Assembly (NCBI GenBank): GCA_017412645.1 | Contig: JAFPWX010000018.1 | Span: 1 to 64,000, forward strand | Length of the DNA: 64,000 nt | Direction: 5' to 3' | From: Bacteroidales bacterium | GTDB taxonomy: Bacteria > Bacteroidota > Bacteroidia > Bacteroidales > UBA932 | Part shown: in pieces, positions 3,501 to 59,283 of the stretch | Layout: every line of letters starts with the position of its first letter | Position numbering within the stretch: the stretch's first letter is position 1 | Notes under the pieces: model-generated | What the model saw: only the letters and a program-made list of their open reading frames with translations | What the model was told of the DNA's origin: nothing | Databases searched by the model: none | Translations under genes and position numbers: made by a program

Positions 3501-3851
3501 ATGGAACAGATCAACAGAGTGGAATTGGTGGGAATAGTGGGAAACTCAAGCACAAACATGGCCGGTGGCCGTAGGGTCACGCATTTTTCACTTGCGACCA
3601 ACAGAGCCTACAGAGATGCCATGGGAGAGCCCAAAATTGAGACCACCTGGCATAATGTGAGCGCGTGGGATGGAAAAGACATACCAGAGCCATCGCAGAT
3701 GCAGAAGGGTGCCAGACTTCGTGTAATCGGCCGCATCCGTAACACGAAAATCCAGAATGAGGGCCAGCCGGACCGTTATTATTCGGACATTCAAGCCATT
3801 GAAGTCCATCCGGTCAAACGTGATGAGCCACTTGTAGATGAGATGAACTAG
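3501..3851 (+). CDS. ssb: Single-stranded DNA-binding protein, short form
   Basis: A 116-residue OB-fold SSB: NRVELVGIVG at the start, HFSLATNRAY, then TTWHNVSAWDGK and GARLRVIGRIRNTKI follow the order of bacterial SSBs. It lacks the long Gly/Pro linker and the acidic DDDIPF-type tail that recruits partner proteins, ending instead in EPLVDEMN. It is therefore probably an accessory SSB and not the main replication protein. The upstream 240 bp is AT-rich; the best -7 match is TATTTTTT near 3403, one base off consensus. The next gene, an envelope lipoprotein, starts 2 bp after the stop, which implies co-transcription with unrelated-looking fimbria-type genes. Confidence 0.88.
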   Translation: MEQINRVELVGIVGNSSTNMAGGRRVTHFSLATNRAYRDAMGEPKIETTWHNVSAWDGKDIPEPSQMQKGARLRVIGRIRNTKIQNEGQPDRYYSDIQAIEVHPVKRDEPLVDEMN

Positions 3852-3853
3852 CT

Positions 3854-5716
3854 ATGCGCACTGCATTCCCTGCGATACTTCTGACTCTTTGTGCCTGTTC
3901 TGCCGCAACTAAGGTTGAAGCGGTGCGGGACGGTGTGCTTGCGCCAAGCCTCAGCGTGGCGGAAGATCTCCCCCCGGCCGACCTGCTTGCTACGGATCCC
4001 GTTTCCGATACCATTCAGGTGACGGATGCTCAGGGGAGAAGTATGCTGCTGATGAGAGCCGTACGAGACGAAAATGGGGAGATGGTGGCGAGCGATGTCA
4101 TATCTCCCGTGGTAGTCGCGGCACGTTTCCGCAACGTGGCGGAAAGACACGGAAGGGTAACCCTTCGCTTCGACGTAAGAGTACCCTCCGGAATGGTTGA
4201 AAGCGGTTGGCAACTTCGATTGTTTCCCATCCTTCGTGTAGGGGAGGAATCCTCGTCGTTGTCTCCCGTTTACATTACGGGTCAGAAGTACCGTAGGGCG
4301 CAGTTGAGAGGCTACGAACGATATGAGCGTTTCCTGGAGAGCATAGTGTCCGATAGCACCCTCTTTATTCGTACGGGACAGCTGGAAATCTTCCTTAGAC
4401 GCAATATGCCCGAACTCTGGGCCCTCAGAACCGACAGCAGTTACGTCTCGGACGAACGTTTTGCTTCCATCTACGGAGTTACCGAGCAGCAGGCTGTGCA
4501 GCACTATACCGATCATTTCCGCAAAAGTCTCAACAGGCGCAGGGAAGCCAGGCGTGAAAAGGTCTTTGCCAGATATGTAAAGGCTCCCATACCAGTTGGT
4601 TTGCAACTGGATACCGTGATTGCGGAAGCCTCAGGTGAAATGATCTACACCTATTCGCACGAGCTTCGTACAAAGCCAGGGCAGCGAAAGGCCGAGATCT
4701 TTCTGAAGGGAACCCTTCATGACGAGGATGGTGAGCTTTGCATCCTTCCGGGAGGAGAACCGCTGGTTTTCTACATCTCATCGTTGAACGGCTTGGTCGA
4801 AGAGCGTGAGAGGTACCTCCTTAAGATAACGTCGCGTCTGGTACGGGCAGATGGAGAATGCCGGTTGGAGTTTTCTGCTGGAAGTGCGTCTTTGGACACA
4901 TCCCTTGGGCGTAATTCCATGGAAATAAAGCGAATAACTGCAGCACTTGAAGAGTTGCTTGAGGATTCAGATTATGCCATGGATTCCATAGTCGTGGCAG
5001 CCACCTGTTCGCCTGAGGGGAGTTGGAGATTCAATTCCGCTCTGTCCCGAAGGCGCAGTCAGGCGGTATGCGACTGGTATTCGGGACTCAGGAATCGTGA
5101 CACCGTGTCGCTGGAATTCATCCCCCGGGCCGTTCCGGAAAACTGGGACGGCCTTTGGGCGGAGGTGACTGCGGATACACTCATACCGGAGCTCGAGAAG
5201 CAAAGGGTGGAGTCGCTCCGGGACGTGCGAGATCCCGACAGACGGGAACGTCTCCTGGCAGGCATGTCCTGCTACCGTTATGTCAGGGAATATCTTTATC
5301 CACATCTGAGAGTGGTGAACTTCCGTTTTTACAGACACCGCCGCGGAATGATACAGGATACGCTTGTAACCACCGTTCCTGATACCGTCTATGCGGCAGG
5401 TCTGCGTGCTCTGCGGGACTGTGACTATAAAAAGGCGGCGGCTTTGCTGGCTCAGTATTCGGACATCAACTCAGCGGTGGCTTTCTGCGCGGCGGACATG
5501 AATGCTTCGGCGATGCATGTACTGGATAATCTTCCAATCAGCGCCAGGGAGGAATACATTCGGGCACTGGTCCATGCTCGCAGAGGAGAGGAACGCAAAG
5601 CAGTTGAAGCATACTGCCGGGCATGTGAACTGGACCCGACTTATGTCCACAGGGGTAATCTCGATCCAGAGATTTCTGGATTGAAAAAGAAATATGAAAC
5701 AGTTGATATTCAATGA
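3854..5716 (+). CDS. OmpA-like outer-membrane lipoprotein, DUF3868/fimbrial-accessory type
   Basis: A 620-residue protein with a lipoprotein signal (lipobox LCAC, Cys15). Residues about 80-130 (VVVAARFRNVAE, SGWQLRLFPIL, YITGQKYRRAQLRGYE) resemble accessory proteins of Mfa/Fim-type fimbrial loci. Residues about 335-420 carry an OmpA-like module in which CSPEGSWRFNSALSRRRSQAV replaces the usual peptidoglycan-binding GHTD...N..LS..RA signature. The C-terminus is TPR-like (ALVHARRGEERKAVEAY). It probably sits in the outer membrane and contacts peptidoglycan. It follows ssb by 2 bp and overlaps the next gene by 4 bp. The family link to DUF3868 is from remembered pattern, not a search. Confidence 0.7.
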   Translation: MRTAFPAILLTLCACSAATKVEAVRDGVLAPSLSVAEDLPPADLLATDPVSDTIQVTDAQGRSMLLMRAVRDENGEMVASDVISPVVVAARFRNVAERHGRVTLRFDVRVPSGMVESGWQLRLFPILRVGEESSSLSPVYITGQKYRRAQLRGYERYERFLESIVSDSTLFIRTGQLEIFLRRNMPELWALRTDSSYVSDERFASIYGVTEQQAVQHYTDHFRKSLNRRREARREKVFARYVKAPIPVGLQLDTVIAEASGEMIYTYSHELRTKPGQRKAEIFLKGTLHDEDGELCILPGGEPLVFYISSLNGLVEERERYLLKITSRLVRADGECRLEFSAGSASLDTSLGRNSMEIKRITAALEELLEDSDYAMDSIVVAATCSPEGSWRFNSALSRRRSQAVCDWYSGLRNRDTVSLEFIPRAVPENWDGLWAEVTADTLIPELEKQRVESLRDVRDPDRRERLLAGMSCYRYVREYLYPHLRVVNFRFYRHRRGMIQDTLVTTVPDTVYAAGLRALRDCDYKKAAALLAQYSDINSAVAFCAADMNASAMHVLDNLPISAREEYIRALVHARRGEERKAVEAYCRACELDPTYVHRGNLDPEISGLKKKYETVDIQ

Positions 5717-6441
5717 GAAAGATATCGATACTCGCGCTTTCGCTTACAGTCCTATCCATGGTGGCTTGCAGTGTGAAGGAAGAACGCGGAGGCTGCCCGG
5801 GATGGTTGCATCTTGAACTGTCCCCACGAAGCGTAACGCTGGTTGAGGGACGGTCTGCAACAGTGAGCGTTTCGCACGAGGGAGGGAGTGACACGCTTTC
5901 GCTTTCTCGTGACTTGCCATCCATATGGATACCGGTAAACAGGGGAGTAGTGGAAGTGAAAGCAGTGTTGGATAACGGAGCCTCTGATCCTTCTGCATGG
6001 GGAATTGAGTGCGACAGCCTTTGGGCATTTTACACGAGATTATCCATGGAAATGGAGGAGACTTCGCTGGACGTAACTCTTCACAAGCGTTTCGCAACGG
6101 TATGGTTTAGTTTTGAGATGGCTCCGGATCCCGAAGAATCCTGCTTGCAGATACGTTCTGTGAGGGATTTCCGATGCCTCTTGTATGCCTCCGACGGAGA
6201 GGCGTCCGTACGCCTCCCGGCAAGTATTGGTGGTGCTTCCCTTGAACTATGCTGTCTGTCTTCCGACGGGAACAGTGTCCTCTGGGAATGGGATCTGGGG
6301 GCTGCGCTCCTGGAGGCCGGATACGATTGGGGCGCGGAGGACCTTTCAGACGCTCGCGTGCGTGTGTCCCTCGCGCCCCTGGAAGTCAGTGTGACTGTTG
6401 TTCCCTGGGAAGGGAACGGAGGCCTTATACTTGAAATCTAG
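5713..6441 (+). CDS. Mfa2/FimB-like fimbrial-anchor lipoprotein
   Basis: A 242-residue lipoprotein: lipobox MVAC with Cys19, then SVKEERGGCPGWLHLEL. The pattern 'Cys, charged KE-R, Cys-Pro, beta strand' directly after the lipidated Cys is typical of FimB/Mfa2 proteins, which anchor fimbriae and limit their length. The rest is beta-rich without a clear domain. It overlaps the OmpA-like gene by 4 bp (ATGA) and is the last gene of the set. No recognisable fimbrillin shaft subunit (Mfa1/FimA type) lies nearby. It ends 4 bp inside the convergent transporter gene. Confidence 0.65.
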   Translation: MRKISILALSLTVLSMVACSVKEERGGCPGWLHLELSPRSVTLVEGRSATVSVSHEGGSDTLSLSRDLPSIWIPVNRGVVEVKAVLDNGASDPSAWGIECDSLWAFYTRLSMEMEETSLDVTLHKRFATVWFSFEMAPDPEESCLQIRSVRDFRCLLYASDGEASVRLPASIGGASLELCCLSSDGNSVLWEWDLGAALLEAGYDWGAEDLSDARVRVSLAPLEVSVTVVPWEGNGGLILEI

Positions 6442-8917: not shown

Positions 8918-9996
8918 AAAAGATAGACTTGTACATATCGAAGCGCTTCCTGGTCACTTTCTTCGTGGCCCTGCTGCTCATAATCGGAATAGTCATTATC
9001 TTCGACATTTCTGAAAAGATTGACGATTTCTCGGGCAAGCATGTGCCGCTGCAGGAAATCATCTTCGACTACTACATCAACTTCGTCCCGTATTTCATAA
9101 ACATGTTCAGCTCGCTGTTCGTGTTCATTACCGTGATATTCTTCACGTCCCGAATGGCCGCGAATTCCGAGATAATCGCCATCCTGTCCGGCGGTGTGAG
9201 CTATCACCGCATGATGGTCCCATATATAGCCACCTCGATTCTGATAGCATTGCTATCATTGGGTTTGAACCTGTATGTGATACCGCAGGCCAATGCAAAA
9301 CGAGTAGAATTCGAAGTCAAGTATATACGGCACAGCCACGTCAAGGACAAACGACGGGAAATCCACTACCAGATAGCCCCCGGGCAGTATGTGTACGTGG
9401 ATAACTTCAGCACCTGGAACAACACGGCCTACCGTTTCACCCTGGAAGACATCGACGGCGGTCGCCTCAAACGCAAGCTCACCGCCGATTCAGCCGTGTG
9501 GGACAGTACCTTCGGAGGCTGGCACCTGCGCAACTGGTTCATCCGCGAATACAGTGAAGGCCTGGAAGACCGGATCATTTCCGGAGAAAAGAAAGATACG
9601 GTCATAGCCCTTACGGTCACAGATTTCTACGAGAACAACCGTACCGTTGAAAAGCTTTCCGGACGACAGCTCAACCAGCTTATCGACAAGCAGAAGATGC
9701 GTGGGGACGCGAACGTGATGTACGCTGAAATCGAGAAGCATACCCGCACTTCCATGCCGTTCTCCTGCATCATCCTCACCATCATGGGAGTGTCGCTCTC
9801 TTCGCGCAAGCGGCGCGGCGGCACGGGCTGGAATCTGGCAATAGGCATAGGTCTCGCATTCTCGTACATCCTCTTCCAGAGATTCTCCCAGATGTTCGTT
9901 TTCACTGGTGCATTGCCTGCGTGGCTTGCGCTGTGGATACCCAATATGCTCTATACAATAATTGCTGCCGTGCTTTACGACAGGGCCAGACGATGA
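8914..9996 (+). CDS. LptF/LptG-family permease of LPS transport
   Basis: A 360-residue YjgP/YjgQ-family membrane protein. Three hydrophobic segments at the N-terminus (FLVTFFVALLLIIGIVIIF; residues about 45-80; about 95-125) and three after residue 280 flank a periplasmic beta-jellyroll region, the layout of LptF/LptG. These proteins form the inner-membrane ABC complex that extracts LPS and feeds the trans-envelope bridge. It starts with GTG overlapping the tgt stop and ends in an ATGA overlap with murF. Whether it plays the LptF or the LptG role cannot be decided here. Confidence 0.9.
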   Translation: MKKIDLYISKRFLVTFFVALLLIIGIVIIFDISEKIDDFSGKHVPLQEIIFDYYINFVPYFINMFSSLFVFITVIFFTSRMAANSEIIAILSGGVSYHRMMVPYIATSILIALLSLGLNLYVIPQANAKRVEFEVKYIRHSHVKDKRREIHYQIAPGQYVYVDNFSTWNNTAYRFTLEDIDGGRLKRKLTADSAVWDSTFGGWHLRNWFIREYSEGLEDRIISGEKKDTVIALTVTDFYENNRTVEKLSGRQLNQLIDKQKMRGDANVMYAEIEKHTRTSMPFSCIILTIMGVSLSSRKRRGGTGWNLAIGIGLAFSYILFQRFSQMFVFTGALPAWLALWIPNMLYTIIAAVLYDRARR

Positions 9997-11366
9997 TATC
10001 CATAAAAGATTTGTACTCCCTTTACGTGGACTGCTCATACAGGGTGTCTACGGATAGCCGCACCATCTCAGGTGGTGAGCTTTTCTTCGCCCTTCGCGGA
10101 GAGAATTTTGATGGTAACGCATATGCCACTCAGGCCATTTCCAAAGGGGCTGAATGGGCGGTGGTGAACTTCGACTGTCCCGGGGATAACAAACGTTTCA
10201 TAAGAGTGGACGACCCCTTCCGCTATCTTCAGGAGCTGGCGATTCTCCATCGAGAGACCCTCGGGATACCGGTAATCGGACTCACCGGAACCAATGGCAA
10301 AACCACGACCAAAGAACTTATTGCCGCGGTACTGGAAGCCCGTTTCGACGTCTGCGCCACCGAGGGAAATTTGAACAACGATATCGGAGTGCCCCTGAGT
10401 CTGCTGAAGATGAGACCCTGGACCAAAATCGCAGTTATCGAAATGGGAGCGTCGCATCCCGATGACATTGCGAAGCTGGTAAAGGTGAGCCAGCCCAACT
10501 ACGGACTTATTACGAACGTGGGAAAGGCCCATCTTCAGGGTTTTGGTTCTTATGAGGGGGTTAAGGCTGCCAAAGGAGAACTGTACCATTGGCTGGGCAG
10601 CCACGAGGGGAGCCTCATTTTCCTGAATCAGGACGATCCCGACCTTGTGGAGATGGCCCGTCCGGAGGCTTGCCATGTCTATGGTTACGGCCTCCATTAT
10701 CAGGGAGCGGAAATCATGCCGGCAACTCCTTCAGAACCTTTCTTGAGAATACGCCTTGCAGATGGTAAAATCGTGCACACCCGTCTGGTGGGCTCGTACA
10801 ATGCTCCCAATGTAATGGCTGCCCTGGCGATAGGGGAATACTTCGGTGTGTCACTGGCAAGCGCCGTGATAGCGGTGGAAGCTTACGAACCCTCCAACAG
10901 CCGTTCGCAGCTCAAACGCTCCGGCAGTAATACGCTTATAATCGACGCCTATAACGCAAATCCTTCTTCAATGAGGGTGGCTCTGGACAACCTTGATTCA
11001 ATGAAAGGAAAATCTAAACTGGCCCTTCTGGGAGATATGCGTGAACTGGGCGACGATTCGCTCGCAGAGCACATTGCCGTGGTAAAGCGATTGCTGGGTT
11101 CGGGAATAAAGTTTTACCTTGTTGGAGAGGAATTCCGGAAGGCATTGCTGGCCTGCGACGTTCCGGGAATGCAGCTTGCCTCTTCGGTCGACGGAGCCGT
11201 CGTCCCGCTTAACAGCGCCCTGCCGAAAAAGAGCGCTTTCCGTGGATGGTTTGCCACGTCCGGCTCCCTGGCGCTCGAACTTAGCGCCAGGCCGGTGGAT
11301 GACAGCATTGTGCTGGTCAAGGGTTCCCGCGGAACCAAAATGGAGAACGTGCTGACTGCCCTATAG
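9993..11366 (+). CDS. murF: UDP-MurNAc-tripeptide--D-Ala-D-Ala ligase
   Basis: MurF adds D-Ala-D-Ala to the UDP-MurNAc peptide, the last cytoplasmic step of the wall precursor. The protein (457 residues) shows the Mur-ligase order: N-terminal uridine-binding domain with STDSRTI, ATP-binding loop GLTGTNGKTTTKE, NNDIGVPLSLL, EMGASHPDDI, NVGKAHLQGFGS, then DAYNANPSSM and LLGDMRELG. The ATG at 9993 fits best because it overlaps the upstream stop and puts the first beta strand at the N-terminus. Longer open frame upstream is antisense-free coding sequence of the permease gene in another frame. It overlaps adk by 6 bp tail to tail. Confidence 0.96.
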   Translation: MISIKDLYSLYVDCSYRVSTDSRTISGGELFFALRGENFDGNAYATQAISKGAEWAVVNFDCPGDNKRFIRVDDPFRYLQELAILHRETLGIPVIGLTGTNGKTTTKELIAAVLEARFDVCATEGNLNNDIGVPLSLLKMRPWTKIAVIEMGASHPDDIAKLVKVSQPNYGLITNVGKAHLQGFGSYEGVKAAKGELYHWLGSHEGSLIFLNQDDPDLVEMARPEACHVYGYGLHYQGAEIMPATPSEPFLRIRLADGKIVHTRLVGSYNAPNVMAALAIGEYFGVSLASAVIAVEAYEPSNSRSQLKRSGSNTLIIDAYNANPSSMRVALDNLDSMKGKSKLALLGDMRELGDDSLAEHIAVVKRLLGSGIKFYLVGEEFRKALLACDVPGMQLASSVDGAVVPLNSALPKKSAFRGWFATSGSLALELSARPVDDSIVLVKGSRGTKMENVLTAL

Positions 11367-43468: not shown

Positions 43469-45154
43469 ATGGAAAAAGACGACAAGAAGATTATATTCTC
43501 GATGGTGGGGGTGAGCAAAATCCTCCCCAATAACAACAAGACTCTTCTAAAAGACATTTATCTTTCATTTTTCTACGGTGCGAAAATCGGCATCATAGGC
43601 CTTAACGGCGCCGGCAAATCCACGCTCATGAAGATAATAGCCGGCATCGACAAACCCACCCGCGGCGAGGTGGTGTTCTCACCTGGCTACTCCGTGGGCT
43701 ATTTGGAGCAGGATCCCCAGATGGATCCGGACAAGACGGTCCTGGAGGTCGTGGAAGAGGGCGTGGCCGATGTGATGAACCTGCTTACCCGCTATAACGA
43801 AGTATGTCGGCATCTTGGAGACATGATAGACGACACGGTTATGTACGCTCTCTTCGAGCAACAGGCCGAATTGACAGAGAAGATAGAGGCTGTAAACGGC
43901 TGGGAAATCGAGTCGAAGCTCAAAAGGGCCATGGACGCCCTGCGCTGCCCGCAGTCGGACGAATTGGTGAAGAACCTCTCCGGGGGCGAACGTCGCCGTG
44001 TGGCCCTCTGCCGTCTGCTTCTCCAGGAACCCGACGTGCTTCTCCTGGACGAGCCCACCAATCATCTCGACGCCGAGAGCATAGACTGGCTGGAGCAGCA
44101 CCTGCAACAGTACAAGGGCACGGTCATCGCCGTTACCCACGATCGTTATTTCCTCGACCATGTGGCCGGTTGGATACTGGAGCTGGACCGCGGCGAAGGC
44201 ATCCCATGGCAGGGCAACTACTCCGGCTGGCTGGAGCAGAAGACTCAGCGTCTGGCTATGGAAGAGAAGACTGCGAGCAAGCGCCGCAAAACCCTCGAGC
44301 GCGAACTCGACTGGATACATATGGCCCCCAAGGCCCGTCAGGCCAAAGGTAAGGCACGTCTGAACAGTTATAACCGCCTGTTGGAAGAGGACGTGAAAGA
44401 GAAGGAAGAGAAACTCGAGATATTCATCCCCAACGGCCCACGTCTGGGCAACAAGGTCATCGAGGCCAAACACGTCCGCAAGGCATATGGCGACAAACTC
44501 CTCTACGAGGATCTGAACTTCGTGCTGCCGCCGAACGGCATTGTGGGTGTCATCGGTCCCAACGGCGCCGGTAAAACCACGCTGTTCCGTCTTATCATGG
44601 GGCTTGATAAGCCCGATTCCGGCAGCTTCGAGGTAGGCGATACGGTAAAGCTTGCCTATGTGGACCAGCAGCACACCAGCATAGACCCGGAAAAGAGCAT
44701 CTACGAAGTGATTTCCGGGGGCAACGAGTTCATTCGCATGGGAGGCCGCGACATCAACGCCCGCGCCTACCTCGCCCGCTTCAATTTCTCCGGAGCCGAC
44801 CAGCAGAAGCTCTGCTCGGCCCTTTCCGGAGGCGAACGCAATCGTCTGCAGCTGGCCCTGGCCCTGAAGGAAGAGGGCAACGTGCTGCTGCTTGACGAAC
44901 CCACCAACGACATCGACGTGAACACCCTGCGCGCCCTGGAAGAGGCTCTGGACGATTTCGCCGGCTGCGCCGTGGTAATCAGCCACGACCGCTGGTTCCT
45001 GGACCGCATCTGTACCCATATCCTCGCTTTCGAAGGGGATTCTCAGGTATACTTCTTCGAGGGCTCTTATTCCGAATACGAGGAAAACAAGATCCAGAGG
45101 CTGGGCTACGAAGAGCCTAAGCGTATCAAATATCGTAAACTCATGGAGGACTAG
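43469..45154 (+). CDS. ettA: ABC-F ATPase, EttA type
   Basis: EttA gates the first steps of translation elongation according to ATP level by binding the ribosomal E site. The 561-residue soluble protein has two ABC cassettes: GLNGAGKSTLM/LSGGERRRVALCRLL/LLLDEPTNHLD, then GPNGAGKTTLF/LSGGERNRLQLALAL/LLLDEPTNDID. An arm and linker rich in Lys/Glu (about residues 270-320) lie between. Length and the SKILPNNNKTLLKDI start fit EttA rather than Uup or antibiotic-resistance ABC-F. The nitroreductase gene follows by 2 bp. Confidence 0.93.
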   Translation: MEKDDKKIIFSMVGVSKILPNNNKTLLKDIYLSFFYGAKIGIIGLNGAGKSTLMKIIAGIDKPTRGEVVFSPGYSVGYLEQDPQMDPDKTVLEVVEEGVADVMNLLTRYNEVCRHLGDMIDDTVMYALFEQQAELTEKIEAVNGWEIESKLKRAMDALRCPQSDELVKNLSGGERRRVALCRLLLQEPDVLLLDEPTNHLDAESIDWLEQHLQQYKGTVIAVTHDRYFLDHVAGWILELDRGEGIPWQGNYSGWLEQKTQRLAMEEKTASKRRKTLERELDWIHMAPKARQAKGKARLNSYNRLLEEDVKEKEEKLEIFIPNGPRLGNKVIEAKHVRKAYGDKLLYEDLNFVLPPNGIVGVIGPNGAGKTTLFRLIMGLDKPDSGSFEVGDTVKLAYVDQQHTSIDPEKSIYEVISGGNEFIRMGGRDINARAYLARFNFSGADQQKLCSALSGGERNRLQLALALKEEGNVLLLDEPTNDIDVNTLRALEEALDDFAGCAVVISHDRWFLDRICTHILAFEGDSQVYFFEGSYSEYEENKIQRLGYEEPKRIKYRKLMED

Positions 45155-50387: not shown

Positions 50388-51532
50388 TGAACGAAACGAA
50401 ATATACCCCCGTGCTGCTGCTGACGGGATATCTCGGCAGCGGAAAGACAACCCTTCTGAACCGCATCCTGGCCAATCAGAAAGGTATCAAGTTCGCCGTT
50501 ATCGTGAACGATCTCGGCACAGTGAACATCGACGCTTCCCTCATTGAGAAGGGGGGTATAGTCGGTAAGAAAGACGAATCCCTGGTGGCCCTCCAGAACG
50601 GCTGCATCTGCTGTACCCTCAAGATGGACCTGGTGGAGCAGCTGAACGACATCACGCGTCAGAACCGCTTCGACTACATCGTAATCGAGGCCAGCGGCAT
50701 CTGCGAACCGGCTCCCATCGCCCAGACTATCAGCACCATACCCCAGCTGGGCCCGCAGTACGCAAACGGCAACAATTACGCGAAGCTCGACTGTATAGCC
50801 ACCGTGGTGGACGCCCTGCGAATGCAGAGCGAATTCAGCTGCGGCGACACCTTGCCTCTCCGTAATTATGACGAAGAAGACCTGGAAAGCCTTGTGGTAC
50901 AGCAGATTGAATTCTGCAACCTGGTGCTCCTGAACAAGGCTTCGATGGTGAAGCCCGAGGAACTGGCCCGCGTGCATTCGGTGATAAAGAACCTGAACCC
51001 GGGTGCTGAAATTATAGAATGTGATTTTTGCGACGTTCCTCTGGAAAAGATCATCAATACCGGCCTGTTCAATTTCGACAAAGTAGCCACTTCCGCTGCA
51101 TGGATTGCAGCGATTGAAGGGGAGGATGAAGAGCTTCACAATGAAGAGGAAGGCGAGGCCGACGAATACGGCGTGGGCACTTTCGTGTGGTACCGCCGCG
51201 AGCCCATGGACATGAACAAGTTCGACTGGTGGGTGGCGAAGTGCTGGCCACGCAGCGTCATCCGTTCCAAGGGCCTGTGCTATTTCTCAAACCAGACCGA
51301 TAACTGCTACCTATTCGAACAGTCGGGAGTGCAGAAGAGCCTCAAGGACGCTGGCCTGTGGTTCGCAACCATGCCCAAGGACCAGCTGGCAGAAATGATG
51401 CTTCACGACCGTGCGCTTCAGCGCGACTGGGATCCGACCTGGGGCGACCGCATGCAGAAGATAGTCTTCATCGGTCAGAATATGGACCGTGAAGAAATAG
51501 AGGCCGGACTGGACAGCTGTCTGGTCAGATAA
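50384..51532 (+). CDS. CobW/COG0523-family GTPase (putative metallochaperone)
   Basis: A 382-residue G3E GTPase. The P-loop is GYLGSGKTTLLN, the metal-binding motif GCICCTL is intact, and EASGICEP and NKASMV supply the remaining GTPase motifs. A Glu-rich stretch (about residues 245-265) precedes the C-terminal CobW domain (FVWYRREPMDMNKFDWWV). Such proteins hand Zn2+ or another metal to client enzymes. It shares an operon with a K+/H+ antiporter and glycosyltransferase. No Zur-like operator is visible. It overlaps the opposing arginase-fold gene by 8 bp. Confidence 0.9.
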   Translation: MMNETKYTPVLLLTGYLGSGKTTLLNRILANQKGIKFAVIVNDLGTVNIDASLIEKGGIVGKKDESLVALQNGCICCTLKMDLVEQLNDITRQNRFDYIVIEASGICEPAPIAQTISTIPQLGPQYANGNNYAKLDCIATVVDALRMQSEFSCGDTLPLRNYDEEDLESLVVQQIEFCNLVLLNKASMVKPEELARVHSVIKNLNPGAEIIECDFCDVPLEKIINTGLFNFDKVATSAAWIAAIEGEDEELHNEEEGEADEYGVGTFVWYRREPMDMNKFDWWVAKCWPRSVIRSKGLCYFSNQTDNCYLFEQSGVQKSLKDAGLWFATMPKDQLAEMMLHDRALQRDWDPTWGDRMQKIVFIGQNMDREEIEAGLDSCLVR

Positions 51533-52181
51533 GACGGCCCTTTAGTGCTTCCACGATAAAGGAATCGGTACGGCGGTTGACGGCAGCGTCTTCCGCCGTT
51601 CCTCCTTCTTCAGGGGGCAGGCTGCCGCAGATGTCGAGCCCGAGGATGCGCCTTCCTGCGGTAAACGCTTCCAGCAGACGGCCGAAGAGAGGCAGGTCGA
51701 GCGAGCCCTGATCCCAGTTGGTGCGGGCGGCGCAGGTGCAGAATACGTCTTTGTCGACAGAAACATAAAGGGGAAGATCCGACGGAGCAGGGGGCGGAAC
51801 CGTCGCTCCTTCCGGGAAGACACTGACGCGATCCTGGAAGCCTTCCGTCTCGCACAGCAGCTCCGGCGATATCCCGATTATCGTCACGTGGCGAAGCAGG
51901 GGACAGCCCTCCAGCAGGTCCCGGACCCATCCGCCGCAGCTGATTACGCCCTCGAAAGCCGGTGCCTGCATGTCGGGATGATGGTCGAAAAGCAGCAGGT
52001 CGAAAGGTTCCGGAACGTTCTCGCAGAAGAAACGGGAAAGATAATGGTAGTCCCCGCTGCCAAGATGATGCACGCCCCGGCAGCGGCCGCCTATGATCTC
52101 CCTCAGGCGCTTTTCGGCTTCAGGGGAGCAGTAGCGGCGGCTGCCTTCGACGGCGCTGCAGTCTATGGCGAATTCTTCCAT
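51525..52181 (-). CDS. Short arginase-superfamily protein
   Basis: A 218-residue member of the ureohydrolase/deacetylase superfamily. Metal-ligand motifs in order: GSGDYHYL (variant of GGDHS), LLLFDHHPDM (DAHxD type with Asp, His and Asp) and YVSVDKDVF (SxDxD). It is about 80 residues shorter than true arginases and the substrate loops differ, so arginine hydrolysis is unproven; amidinohydrolase or deacetylase activity is possible. It lies 1 bp after the acyltransferase gene on the same strand, close to rocD and pruA. Confidence 0.75.
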   Translation of the reverse strand: MEEFAIDCSAVEGSRRYCSPEAEKRLREIIGGRCRGVHHLGSGDYHYLSRFFCENVPEPFDLLLFDHHPDMQAPAFEGVISCGGWVRDLLEGCPLLRHVTIIGISPELLCETEGFQDRVSVFPEGATVPPPAPSDLPLYVSVDKDVFCTCAARTNWDQGSLDLPLFGRLLEAFTAGRRILGLDICGSLPPEEGGTAEDAAVNRRTDSFIVEALKGRLI

Positions 52182-53567: not shown

Positions 53568-54797
53568 ATGCTAAATAAACTCTCTTCCGCCGACTACATA
53601 GCGCTAGAAGAACGCTACGGAGCTCATAACTATCATCCACTTCCCGTCGTCCTGGAACGCGGGGAAGGAGTGTTCGTCTGGGATGTAGAAGGCAAACGCT
53701 ATTTCGATTTCCTTTCCGCCTATTCGGCCGTGAACCAGGGTCACTGCCATCCCAAAATTGTAAAGGCCCTTACCGACCAGGCGCAGAAACTGTGCCTTAC
53801 CTCCCGCGCATTCTACAACGACTGCCTTGGCCCTTACGAGAAGTTCGCCACCGAGTTCTTCGGCTACGACAAGCTCCTGCCCATGAATTCCGGCGCGGAG
53901 GCGGTGGAAACCGCCCTCAAGCTGGCCCGCCGCTGGGGCTACAAGGTGAAGGGCATTCCTGAAAACGAGGCACTCATAGTCGTGTGCAACGGCAACTTCC
54001 ATGGCCGTACCATCACCATCGTCACAATGAGTTCGGACCCGGACAGCTATTCGCAGTACGGCCCCTTCACGCCCGGCTTCATCCAGATCCCCTACGACGA
54101 CACCGACGCCCTTGCGAAGGTGCTGGACGAAAAGGGAGATAAGGTATGCGCCATGCTGGTGGAGCCCATTCAGGGCGAAGCCGGCGTATATGTGCCGCAC
54201 GACGGTTACATCAAGAAATGCTACGAGCTCTGCCACGCCCACAACGTGCTTTTCGTGGCAGACGAGGTGCAGACCGGCATAGGCCGTACCGGCCGCATGT
54301 TCGCATGCGATCACGAAGGCGTGCGTCCCGACATGATCACCATAGGCAAGGCCCTCTCCGGAGGCACCCTTCCCGTGTCGGCAGTGCTGGCGGACGACGA
54401 AATCATGCTCACCATCCTTCCCGGCGAGCACGGCTCCACCTTCGGCGGCTTCCCGCTGGCGGCAAAGGTGGCGGTTGCGGCGCTTGAGGTCGTCCGCGAC
54501 GAGCATCTCACCGAGAACGCAGCCCGCCTTGGAGTCATCTTCCGTGAAGAGATAGCCAAAATCAAGAGTCCGTTCTTCAAATCCGTGCGCGGTAAGGGCC
54601 TGCTCAATGCAGTTATTACCGAACCGCAGAACGGCCTCGAAGCCTGGGACATCTGCCTCCGTCTGGCCGAAAAAGGCCTTCTGGCAAAGCCCACGCACAG
54701 GCACATCATACGTTTCGCACCGCCTCTGGTCATCACCGAAGCCCAGCTGCGCGAGGCGATAGGCATCATAAAAGAAGTATTCGAAGAATTAGCATAA
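53568..54797 (+). CDS. rocD: Ornithine--oxo-acid transaminase
   Basis: Converts ornithine plus 2-oxoglutarate to glutamate-5-semialdehyde and glutamate. The 409-residue class-III PLP enzyme shows the family N-terminus ([43 protein letters not shown]), [33 protein letters not shown] and the PLP Lys in [10 protein letters not shown]. pruA follows by 3 bp and uses the product, so the pair runs ornithine to glutamate. Confidence 0.95.
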
Positions 54798-54800
54798 CAA

Positions 54801-56426
54801 ATGAACAACGCTGTCATTCAATTTCCCCTTCCGCAGAATGAGCCGGTTAAGGCCTATCTGAAAGGTTCCCCCGAACGCGTGGCCCTGGAGGCCGAGCTCG
54901 AGCGTCAGTACAATACCGTTCTGGACATCCCCCTCATTATAGGAGGCAAGGAAATCCGTGCCGGCAACACCGGAAAGGTGGTTTGCCCGCACGAACACGG
55001 TCACGTGCTCGCCACCTTCCACAAGGCGGGTGAAAAAGAAGTGAAAATGGCCATCGACGCGGCCATGAAGGCTCGTGAAGAGTGGAGCAGGACTCCCTGG
55101 ACTACCCGTGCCGCCATAGTGCTCAAATGCGCTGAACTCCTGGCTACCAAGTACCGCCCCATCATGAATGCAGCCTGCATGCTGGGCCAGTCGAAAAATT
55201 TCTATCAGGCAGAAATCGACTCCGCCTGCGAAACCATCGATTTCTTCCGCTACAACGTGCATTATGCATCCAAGATTTATTCGATGCAGCCCAAGAACGG
55301 AGCCACATTCCTGGATCAGACGGAATACCGTCCTCTCGAAGGCTTCATCCTGGCCGTGACTCCCTTCAACTTCACCTCCATCGCGTCCAACCTGTGCATG
55401 ACGCCCGTTCTGATGGGTAATGTCGCCCTCTGGAAGCCCTCCACCACGGCAACCCTCTCCAACTACTATCTCATGCAGCTTTACAAGGAAGCAGGCTTGC
55501 CCGACGGAGTCATCAACTTCCTTCCCGGAAGCGGCGCCCTCATCGGAGAGGTTGCCACGTCGTCAAAGTGGTTCTCCGGCATCCATTTCACCGGTTCCAC
55601 GGCCACCTTCAAGACTCTCTGGAAGCAGGCCTGCGCCAATCTGGACGCGTACGTGAGCTATCCGCGCCTGGTCGGCGAAACCGGCGGCAAGGACTTCATC
55701 TTCGTGCATCCTTCGGCGGACGTGCAGGCGGTGGCCACCGCGGCCTTCTGCGGAGCGTTCGAGTTCCAGGGACAGAAGTGTTCCGCTGCCTCGCGCATGT
55801 ACATCCCCAAGAGCCTCTGGCCGGCAGTGCTGAAGCAGATGAAGCAGTTTGCATCCGAAGTGAAGATGGGAACCGTGATGGATCCCGGCAACTTCATCAA
55901 CGCAGTCATCGACGAGAAGTCCTGGGATAACATCGACGGCTATCTGCGCTATGCGGAACAGTCCAAGGACGCGAAGATAGTGCTGGGCGGCGGCCGCGAC
56001 AAGAGCGTAGGCTACTTTGTTGAACCCACGGTGATCGAAACCACGGACCCGCATTTCAAGAGCATGGAAGAGGAGATCTTCGGCCCGGTACTCACCGTTT
56101 ACCCTTACGACGACGACAAGGTCTGGGAAGCCGTTAAGCTCTGCGACACCACTTCGCCCTACGGCCTCACAGGCTCAGTATTCGGCCTCGACCGCCTTGA
56201 AGTGGAAAAGATTTCGGAGGCTCTCAGCTATGCCGCGGGTAACTTCTACATCAACGACAAGCCCACGGGCGCCGTTGTGGGAATGCAGCCTTTCGGCGGA
56301 GCCAGGGCCAGCGGAACCAACGACAAGGCCGGCGGCTAGTTCAACCTCATCCGCTGGGTCATACCGCGCGTAATCAAGGAGACGCTGGTGTCTCCCACGG
56401 ATTACCGTTATACTTACATGAAGTAA
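54801..56426 (+). CDS. pruA: 1-pyrroline-5-carboxylate dehydrogenase interrupted by an in-frame TAG
   Basis: PruA oxidises glutamate-5-semialdehyde/P5C to glutamate with NAD+. Catalytic motifs are intact: ETGGKDFIFVHPSADVQAV (Glu base) and GQKCSAASRMYIPKS (Cys nucleophile). The frame reaches a TAG at 56337-56339 after the universally placed GGARASGTNDKAGG. The same frame then continues FNLIRWVIPRVIKETLVS PTDYRYTYMK to TAA at 56424-56426, which matches the normal PruA C-terminus. Full length would be about 541 residues, the family norm; termination at TAG gives 512. It could be a recent nonsense mutation, readthrough or a sequencing error. The 3' end overlaps the opposing aldolase gene by 13 bp. 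Confidence 0.9.
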
Positions 56427-57442
56427 GACTCCAGAGTCTTGATATTCTCCGGCAGCGTTGCCCAGCTTGTAGCAAAGCGGGTGACGCTGCTGCCGTCTTC
56501 CAGAGGCTGCCAGATTTCAAAGCGCACGCCTCCTTCGAGACGCTTCATCTGCTCCTTCGTGAGTATGGGGAACTGCTGGTTGGTAGGGGAGTCGATATGG
56601 AGGGGAATACCCTTTTCGATGAACATGCGCTTCAGTTCCATGGCCAGGTCGATGGCATGGCGGCTGATTTTCTGGTACAGGCCGTCGGTGAAGAGAGTGT
56701 CGAACTGAATGCCCAGAAGGCGTCCCTTGGCCATGAGCGCACCATGCTGCTTCACTATGGTGAAAAAGTTCTTCGGAGCGTTGCCGCGGGGGAATACCAC
56801 AGCCTCGCCGCAGAGGGCTCCGACCTTGGTTCCGCCTATATAGAAGACATCGCAAAGACCGGCCAGGGCGGGGAGGTCTACATCGGCGGCCGGACTTGCA
56901 AGGCCGTATCCGAGACGGGCTCCATCTATGAATAGAGGCATGTCGTATTTCCTGCATATGGCATGGATGCCCTGGAGTTCCTTTTTGGAATAGATGGTGC
57001 CGTATTCCGAGGGAAACGACAGATATACCATCCCTGGCTGAGCCATGTGCGGCCAGGTGGGATCCGCGTAGAAAGCCTCCAGATAATCCTGGAGATCCTT
57101 TTCCCTAATCTTTCCTTCCAGTGCGGGGAGGGTGATGACCTTGTGCCCCGAGTGCTCTATGGCCCCCGATTCATGAACGGCGATATGCCCGGTCTGAGCT
57201 GCGATCACGGCTCCGTAATGGGGGAGCATCGCGTCGATCACCGTGGCATTGGTCTGGGTGCCGCCCACCAGCAGAAATACGTCGGCCTTTGGAGCGCCGG
57301 CCGCTTTGCGTATCTTTTCTATAGCAGCTCTGGTGAAGCTGTCTTCGCCGTATCCGGGTTCCTGAACCAGGTTTGTTTCCGCCAGGCGGCGGAGTATTTC
57401 GGGGTGGGCCCCCTCGATGTAATCACAGGTGAAAGAAATCAT
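56414..57442 (-). CDS. ltaE: Low-specificity L-threonine aldolase (beta-eliminating lyase family)
   Basis: Splits threonine to glycine and acetaldehyde. The 342-residue fold-type I PLP protein has YGEDSFT near the N-terminus, FLLVGGTQTNATVIDAML, GHIAVHESGAIEHSGHKV, LFIDGARLGYGLA and the PLP Lys in YIGGTKVGALCGE. The start is the ATG at 57442 (MISFTCDYIEGAHPEIL), because the upstream part of the frame lies in the 5'-nucleotidase gene. It follows that gene by 14 bp on the same strand. Confidence 0.88.
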   Translation of the reverse strand: MISFTCDYIEGAHPEILRRLAETNLVQEPGYGEDSFTRAAIEKIRKAAGAPKADVFLLVGGTQTNATVIDAMLPHYGAVIAAQTGHIAVHESGAIEHSGHKVITLPALEGKIREKDLQDYLEAFYADPTWPHMAQPGMVYLSFPSEYGTIYSKKELQGIHAICRKYDMPLFIDGARLGYGLASPAADVDLPALAGLCDVFYIGGTKVGALCGEAVVFPRGNAPKNFFTIVKQHGALMAKGRLLGIQFDTLFTDGLYQKISRHAIDLAMELKRMFIEKGIPLHIDSPTNQQFPILTKEQMKRLEGGVRFEIWQPLEDGSSVTRFATSWATLPENIKTLESYFM

Positions 57443-57456
57443 ATTACCTAGCGTTG

Positions 57457-59283
57457 TTACCAAACTATGAAGTGCGGGGTCGTGTCTATTTGCAAGAGGC
57501 CTCCGGAGACGGCAGCTTCGTCGCGCAGTACCCGGACAGCGTTCTCGTTGTCTATCAGGTCATTGCTGAGCAGGCGGGAAGTGCTGTTCCACTCGATAAG
57601 GGGATTGGGGAGACCTGTGGAATAGTCCGTGCGCTCAGACGTGGCCACAAAGGAACTCACTGAAAGAGTGACTTTGCGCGATGCCCAGTCTCCGTTCCAG
57701 GAGCCGTTGGAATAGATTGTAACTCCGTCTTTTACGAGTTTCATTACGGTGCGTGAACTGTAATAGCAGTCGATTCCGCTTACTCTGGAGAAGAGTGAGT
57801 TGCCGCCGGCAGTGAGTGAATACTCGAACACGCGAAGGAGTTCCGAATAAGTGATGTCGTAGACGTAGATCTCGTTGTTGAAGGGGAACATCTCAAAGAT
57901 GTTGGCTACGGTGATGTTGCGGGTACTCTGGCCTTGGAGCGGGAATGAAGTGCGTATTCCTCCGCTGTTCACGAAAGCTACGTCGGCATTGCCTATGCGG
58001 CGGATGATGTCGCACATCCAGTTGGAAATGATGGCTGCGCGCTCTCCGCTGCCGTCAAGGTAGTAAGTGGTCGCGCCCACGTTGATGTAGCCGATTACGT
58101 CGTTCATCTGGGCTGCAGTCGCTTGAAGCGCAGCGTCCGATACCTCCAGAATATCTTCGGACAATTCGCTCGCGTTCTGGCCCTCATAAGCGTGGAGATC
58201 CCTGTTCGAATCCACGGTAACAGTGAACTTGTTGCTGACACGGCTGAATGAGAAAGAGCCATCCTCGTCCACCGTAAACCACAGGTCCGCGCGGGCAAAT
58301 CGCTCGCAGTAACGGCCTCCCTGAAGAAATGCGAGCCCCCAGCCGGAGTCGCCGGAAAGCGTGCTGTGGGAATGGCCTCCAAGCACCAGGTCTATTCTGG
58401 ATCCGGATCCGAGCGCGTCCGCTGCGTTTTGGGCCTGGCAGTGGGTGAGAAGGATAGTGGCGTCGCACTCCTGCGAGTTTTCCAGCTGCTCGGCAATCCT
58501 GTTGGCAATGGAATAATCTTCATCGATGGAAAAGCCCCGGCCTATGAATCGGGAGTTCATGATGCTGGAGGCATAGTCGTCTGCGAAGCCTATGATGCCT
58601 ATCTTCACCGAAATCGTGAATCCGTCTGCGTCGACGGCGTTCTTTTCCACTATGACGTAGTCTTTCGTGAAGGGGACCCGGCTGCCGTTTTGATAAAGGT
58701 TGGCGCAGAGAACTGGCACTTTGTTCTCATGCCGCTCTCCCTGCCATTCGTAGTCCGGCACGGTGGCGTCGGCATCGACCGTATTCTCTATGCTCCAGTC
58801 GAATTCGTGATTGCCCAGGGCCACTGCGTCGTAACCCATGTGGTCGACGGCAACGAAGAGAGGCCAGCCGGACAGAAGATTGGACACGCTGCCTCCCTGA
58901 TAGATGTCGCCTCCGTCCAGTAGCAGGAGGCGGTCTTTCTTGAAGTCCTGGCCGTGCCCGCGTATATCGTCGGCTTTGTCGGCTATGTAGGCTAGTCTGT
59001 AATGCACCGTGCCGTCGCTATCGGTTTCAATCATGTGACCGTGCATATCGGTGGTTTCGATGACCGTGAGGCGATAATCTCCCGGCTTCGGTGATTCCGG
59101 CTGGGTTCCCGGGTCTGTGCCGGGATCTGTGCCGGGATCTGTGCCGGGATCTGTGCCCGGATCTGTCCCGGGGTCTGTTTCAATGGGCGCAACCGCTTCC
59201 TGAGGTTGCTCCGGTTTGTGACAGGAAAACACCAGGAATGACAGTGTCGCAAGTATCAGTAATGAAACAGAGTGCCTTTTCAT
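57457..59283 (-). CDS. 5'-nucleotidase-family metallophosphatase lipoprotein
   Basis: A 608-residue lipoprotein (lipobox VFSC, followed by HKPE). A linker of six DPGT units comes next. The metallophosphatase domain has DMHGHM, DGGDIYQGG, GNHEFDWS, THCQ and GGHSH, the full set of dimetal ligands. The 5'-nucleotidase C-terminal domain shows AFVNSGGIRTSF and ITVANIFEMFPFNNEI with substrate-stacking aromatic residues. Expected role: hydrolysing nucleotides or 2',3'-cyclic nucleotides in the periplasm or at the surface, for purine scavenging. The start is the ATG at 59283; a -7 box 6 nt upstream makes it a leaderless candidate. Confidence 0.92.
   Translation of the reverse strand: MKRHSVSLLILATLSFLVFSCHKPEQPQEAVAPIETDPGTDPGTDPGTDPGTDPGTDPGTQPESPKPGDYRLTVIETTDMHGHMIETDSDGTVHYRLAYIADKADDIRGHGQDFKKDRLLLLDGGDIYQGGSVSNLLSGWPLFVAVDHMGYDAVALGNHEFDWSIENTVDADATVPDYEWQGERHENKVPVLCANLYQNGSRVPFTKDYVIVEKNAVDADGFTISVKIGIIGFADDYASSIMNSRFIGRGFSIDEDYSIANRIAEQLENSQECDATILLTHCQAQNAADALGSGSRIDLVLGGHSHSTLSGDSGWGLAFLQGGRYCERFARADLWFTVDEDGSFSFSRVSNKFTVTVDSNRDLHAYEGQNASELSEDILEVSDAALQATAAQMNDVIGYINVGATTYYLDGSGERAAIISNWMCDIIRRIGNADVAFVNSGGIRTSFPLQGQSTRNITVANIFEMFPFNNEIYVYDITYSELLRVFEYSLTAGGNSLFSRVSGIDCYYSSRTVMKLVKDGVTIYSNGSWNGDWASRKVTLSVSSFVATSERTDYSTGLPNPLIEWNSTSRLLSNDLIDNENAVRVLRDEAAVSGGLLQIDTTPHFIVW
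59105..59176 (-). repeat. 12-bp tandem repeat encoding the DPGT linker
   Basis: Six units of 12 bp; three central copies read GTGCCGGGATCT (plus strand) exactly, and the others differ by 1-4 bases. They encode (DPGT)n between the lipid anchor and the enzyme domain. Identical neighbouring copies make it prone to slippage that keeps the frame if units of 12 bp are gained or lost. Confidence 0.9.

Follow-up and report, generated by a model that had tools for sequence, protein, structure and literature searches.

In-frame stop codons are widespread in bacterial genes and mostly last like population polymorphisms, according to the survey by Belinky et al. 2021, which adds that such stops may be read through and that many artefacts are to be expected among single cases (PMC7918605). 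The amber codon described here, in the pruA gene of a gut-type Bacteroidales bacterium, resembles the stops of that survey: the gene is under purifying selection, one codon has become nonsense, and the surrounding sequence has not decayed. It differs from the survey's main set as described there, which took stops common to at least two species in order to avoid artefacts, in that the pruA stop was seen in one genome only (PMC7918605). Short-lived in-frame stops are already known in bacteria from this source, and the pruA case fits the short-lived kind (PMC7918605). A TAG within an otherwise open frame is also the outward sign of amber reassignment or suppression, as with pyrrolysine and in crAss-like phages. 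Whereas crAss-like phages have suppressor tRNAs for amber, this genome has no CUA anticodon among its 44 tRNA genes, a PylS match that stays under the cut-off, and TAG in ordinary use. The protein itself is akin to the ALDH4-type PruA of TIGR01236, with a score over the cut-off and Cys327 and Glu293 in place, but by the standard code this copy is 29 residues shorter.

Within the window, by which we mean the whole 64,000-nucleotide stretch of DNA analysed, pruA (54801–56339, forward strand; TIGR01236, PF00171) encodes L-glutamate gamma-semialdehyde dehydrogenase. The frame opens at 54801, runs for 512 codons to ...ASGTNDKAGG and meets TAG at 56337–56339 as codon 513. The same frame continues as FNLIRWVIPRVIKETLVSPTDYRYTYMK, 28 sense codons at 56340–56423 corresponding to the normal PruA C-terminus, and closes with TAA at 56424–56426, the usual pruA end, as read in the sequence. 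Reading 54801–56426 bore out the first-pass annotation, which had described an in-frame TAG with 28 sense codons and a TAA after it. TIGR01236 scores 741.6 bits when the tail is included and 706.7 bits when it is left off, against a cut-off of 613.6, and the match starts at residue 12 in either case; among solved structures the closest matches are mitochondrial P5C dehydrogenases, for example 4oe5 and 3v9g, with alignments that extend to residue 540 of 541. The usual end residue is shared by 22 of the 25 pruA loci examined among L158–L185, with L164, L180 and L185 being 1 to 3 codons longer. Three bases upstream lies rocD, for ornithine aminotransferase (53568–54797, forward strand), which is intact, with 670.1 bits to TIGR01885 against a cut-off of 378.4 and zero stops inside.

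Judged by conservation, the 28 codons after the TAG are the true PruA C-terminus. In a comparison with the nearest relative found (L158, from genome G299; 80.6% identical in DNA), 28 of 28 residues are the same, and the codons show 13 synonymous differences and 0 nonsynonymous ones. Residues N515, R518, W519, K526, E527 and Y537 are invariant in a 38-sequence alignment, in agreement with the earlier claim that the codons after the stop match the conserved family C-terminus. Scored by codon usage, the tail ranks second of the 90 tails that are largely clear of other ORFs and first of the 27 such tails that follow TAG. On this comparison the evidence that counts is conservation and not open length. 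A long open tail was rejected as evidence by itself: in a 464-kb sample (26% of the genome, made up of the window and 400 kb more), at least 28 open in-frame codons follow the stop in 134 of 305 mechanically called ORFs, pruA included, and length alone carries little weight because so many tails match or exceed it, many of them via the next gene there. At L208:18921–19877, an ORF is followed by TGA and a 168-codon in-frame stretch, whose coding score is the highest among all 90 free tails and which is possibly the shadow of an opposite-strand gene.

In this genus pruA is an accessory gene, present at E 1e-60 in 42 of 400 genomes drawn from it, this genome included, and in 18 of 150 genus genomes with at least 90% completeness and at most 5% contamination. 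The site is spanned in 38 genus genomes, again with this one included, and by the count from the search table the stop stands there in this genome alone; four pruA-bearing genomes (G093, G125, G330 and G378) have no match reaching the site. The first-pass annotation had proposed comparing pruA in sister genomes, and that comparison finds Glu at the position of codon 513 in all 30 readable genus loci, as GAG in 27 and GAA in 3, from 31 loci extracted (L184, from G093, stops short of the site); for the seven further spanning genomes the absence of a stop is taken from the search table. TAG is therefore a single base change from the GAG of 27 of the 30 relatives read. A sense codon also occupies the site in each of the 14 loci belonging to the same order, and in all of the best 80 of 588 confirmed named loci, among which the residue is highly varied outside the close group; the order, genus and named counts are not independent because the sets overlap (L032 and L173, for example, look alike). 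The species itself is represented in this comparison by one genome, and records of its own or very near genomes were possibly left out of the comparison. A ruminant is named in the titles of 6 of the 9 closest named records among the matches listed (L032–L040).

Confinement of the stop to one lineage with intact relatives is a feature of a recent nonsense allele. A stop common to at least two species with constraint after it was not found among the 38 spanning genus genomes, and a stop shared with other species was rejected for the genomes examined in the genus, the order and the best 80 of 588 named loci. A second apparently broken pruA in the genus, with one TGA, was also rejected; in that genome (G241, contig C25, L186:1691–1735) the gene is interrupted by a run of 45 N, an assembly gap with a shifted frame. 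A distant aldehyde dehydrogenase match in another genome (G059:C3:129674–131080) has one TAG inside the aligned stretch, possibly where the alignment has run past the natural end.

The substitution pattern sets a limit on the age of the stop. Compared with L158, the body of pruA has dN of about 0.08 and dS of about 1.24; at the body's rate about 5 nonsynonymous differences would be expected in the tail, and 0 are observed. Of the 269 sites at which 33 relatives do not vary, two differ in this copy, the stop and T54A. Neutral drift of the tail along the whole of its own branch would give 31–40 amino-acid-changing substitutions, and because none is seen relative to L158 any drifting period is limited to about the last 8–10% of that branch, a rough estimate, given that dS approaches saturation and that the branch length was set at half the pairwise distance. 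That no decay has yet set in after the stop (0 nonsynonymous and 13 synonymous differences) is a further feature of a recent nonsense allele, and an intact tail fits a base error equally as well as a very young mutation. When 369 ORFs (484 kb of relatives) were matched to the 464-kb sample, 22 good matches fell in 17 distinct places, of which four contained internal stops. Three of these stem from starts that were extended too far or from an alignment that continues beyond the natural stop, and pruA is the one case that is not an alignment artefact, in a sample that is small, partly drawn from around pruA, and not a measure of the whole-genome pseudogene rate.

Reassignment of TAG throughout the genome is excluded, as the first-pass annotation had argued, with TAG terminating 84 of the 311 ORFs of at least 150 aa in the 464-kb sample. 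Three of the genes it had named as ordinary users of TAG do end so, namely ssb (3501–3851), the Mur ligase gene murF (9921–11366) and the ABC ATPase gene that it called ettA (43469–45154); for the fourth, an ORF at 5713–6441, the TAG end holds, but the description as Mfa2-like is met by zero Pfam family matches at E 0.001. The suppressor tRNA that it suggested looking for did not appear: from 76 first-look candidates, 44 tRNA genes passed the cut-off in this 96.41% complete genome, and the anticodon given by ARAGORN at each of the 44 is other than CUA. RF1 is present (472.9 bits versus a cut-off of 423.25). The PylS model reaches only 20.4 bits against a cut-off of 178.15, and 13 of 14 control genomes match it too, one over the cut-off. 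For this assembly a change of genetic code or a suppressor tRNA is rejected on the 44 non-CUA tRNAs, RF1, the use of TAG and the weak PylS match.

Both Cys327 and Glu293, which we take to be the catalytic residues of PruA, precede the stop and are invariant in the 38 sequences. By the standard code 29 residues are lost (position 513 and the following 28), six of them invariant, and the cut falls inside the aldehyde-dehydrogenase core because the PF00171 match of the truncated protein ends at profile position 448 of 461. The lost segment is presumably the counterpart of the ALDH2 region holding Glu487, and P5CDH oligomerisation has reportedly been studied by Luo et al. 2013. In human ALDH2, the E487K dimer is described as destabilised and its NAD site as disordered (PMC8160307), and ALDH4A1 of human and mouse are given as dimers (PMC4659792). 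In a Thermus ALDH two truncations of the C-terminal arm kept activity, even at a slightly higher level, and the arm is there said to begin past the oligomerisation domain (PMC6127216). By analogy, it is plausible that the residues lost here help form the oligomer interface. Dimer stability and activity would probably be reduced or abolished in the 512-residue PruA because the last stretch of the core and the C-terminal extension of the group are both missing.

The metabolic setting bears on how such a loss would be felt. PruA is here most likely the last step of an arginine/ornithine route to glutamate. Family searches of the genome returned no match for proline dehydrogenase (8 of 14 control genomes match), none for proC by two models (14/14 and 12/14 controls) and none for proA (14/14 controls). 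Since no proline dehydrogenase was found, the expected source of substrate is ornithine via the adjoining rocD, and the earlier suggestion that truncation could weaken proline and ornithine use keeps its ornithine part and loses its proline part. With proA and proC likewise not found, PruA looks like the sole recognised outlet for the RocD product, and the organism may depend on external proline. Across the genus, rocD is present at E 1e-100 in 34 of 400 genomes, 32 of which also have pruA, treating the two draws of 400 as one set on the strength of agreeing genome handles. In the nearest relative (G299, L187:225–3083) the rocD–pruA pair adjoins genes for ornithine carbamoyltransferase and an amino-acid kinase and an arginine-deiminase-like gene on the other strand. 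In the window, an ORF at 51525–52181 contains a DHHPDM stretch, which we take to resemble that of arginases, and has no Pfam match.

We consider a very recent nonsense mutation, with a real base and an impaired product, the probable explanation. One recent base substitution would have turned the genus-conserved Glu codon of pruA into TAG, and the ribosome would terminate there through RF1 to yield a 512-residue PruA. That product would keep the presumed catalytic residues Cys327 and Glu293 and lack the last stretch of the ALDH core together with the C-terminal extension. The allele would then be a young nonsense form of an accessory arginine/ornithine pathway gene with no decoding system attached. 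The stop, its absence from the relatives read, the intact tail and the lack of a CUA anticodon among the tRNAs found are what we observe; from them we infer a real base, efficient termination and an impaired product. A dead PruA beside an intact rocD should lead to a pile-up of glutamate semialdehyde and therefore be selected against, and this expectation makes three other readings somewhat more credible: an error in the base, a stop that leaks, and a short enzyme that works. The foremost of these, though still rather unlikely, is that the consensus base in the draft assembly is wrong, or is that of a minor strain, and that the pruA of the organism is intact. In a draft genome such as this one (96.41% complete, 26 contigs), a single wrong base would look identical. 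The stop lies one base from the codon of 27 of the 30 relatives read, the remainder of the gene looks functional with its tail undecayed and rocD intact, no other outlet for the RocD product was found, and artefacts do occur in this genome set, as the 45 N gap in the pruA of G241 illustrates. Yet a base error has no positive sign in its favour: the adjoining rocD is free of internal stops, and at the 17 matched places every internal stop but that of pruA is an alignment artefact, in a sample that is small and partly drawn from around pruA.

That the 512-residue enzyme still works, its new C-terminus being harmless, we regard as very unlikely. Both presumed catalytic residues lie before the stop and do not vary in 38 sequences, the TIGR01236 cut-off is still passed without the tail, and the shortened Thermus arms kept their activity (PMC6127216). 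However, the Thermus tail lies past the oligomerisation domain, whereas the cut here is inside the Pfam core (448/461) and removes six invariant residues. The E487K change of human ALDH2 makes the dimer less stable (PMC8160307), and its position presumably matches the segment lost here. It is at least as improbable that near-cognate tRNAs decode the TAG at a useful level, so that small amounts of full-length PruA accompany the truncated protein. Constraint on the tail is no weaker than on the body (0 nonsynonymous differences versus about 5 expected), the RocD product seemingly has no outlet other than PruA, and the survey finds many bacterial in-frame stops in genes whose dN/dS is below 1 and suggests that readthrough is frequent (PMC7918605). 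But RF1 is present, no suppressor tRNA was found and TAG is an ordinary stop; the stop occurs in no other genome examined, which gives no support for a conserved function; and a conserved tail would follow just as well from a very young mutation or from an error. We give scant credence to the related idea that a lineage with no other recognised glutamate semialdehyde outlet tolerates, or uses, a leaky pruA amber as a control of dose through near-cognate readthrough. The first-pass annotation had offered a very recent change, a base error or readthrough; the first two stand, and readthrough is left without positive support by the tRNA census, the presence of RF1 and the restriction to a single genome.

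The pruA stop was observed correctly and is something ordinary, one nonsense change seen in one genome, and it means little beyond careful annotation. It does show how to classify a lone in-frame stop met in a draft assembly, with relatives supplying the expected codon, the synonymous and nonsynonymous counts a limit on age, and the tRNA census an argument against suppression. If the stop is real, an accessory gene of ornithine catabolism would be at the first step of its loss, in a genome where the intermediate has no second recognised outlet. At the far end of the locus, a convergent beta-eliminating-lyase-like gene (56414–57463, reverse strand; PF01212, 79.6 bits) ends inside the normal pruA frame, so that the 3′ ends overlap by 13 bases at 56414–56426, where both stop codons can be read.
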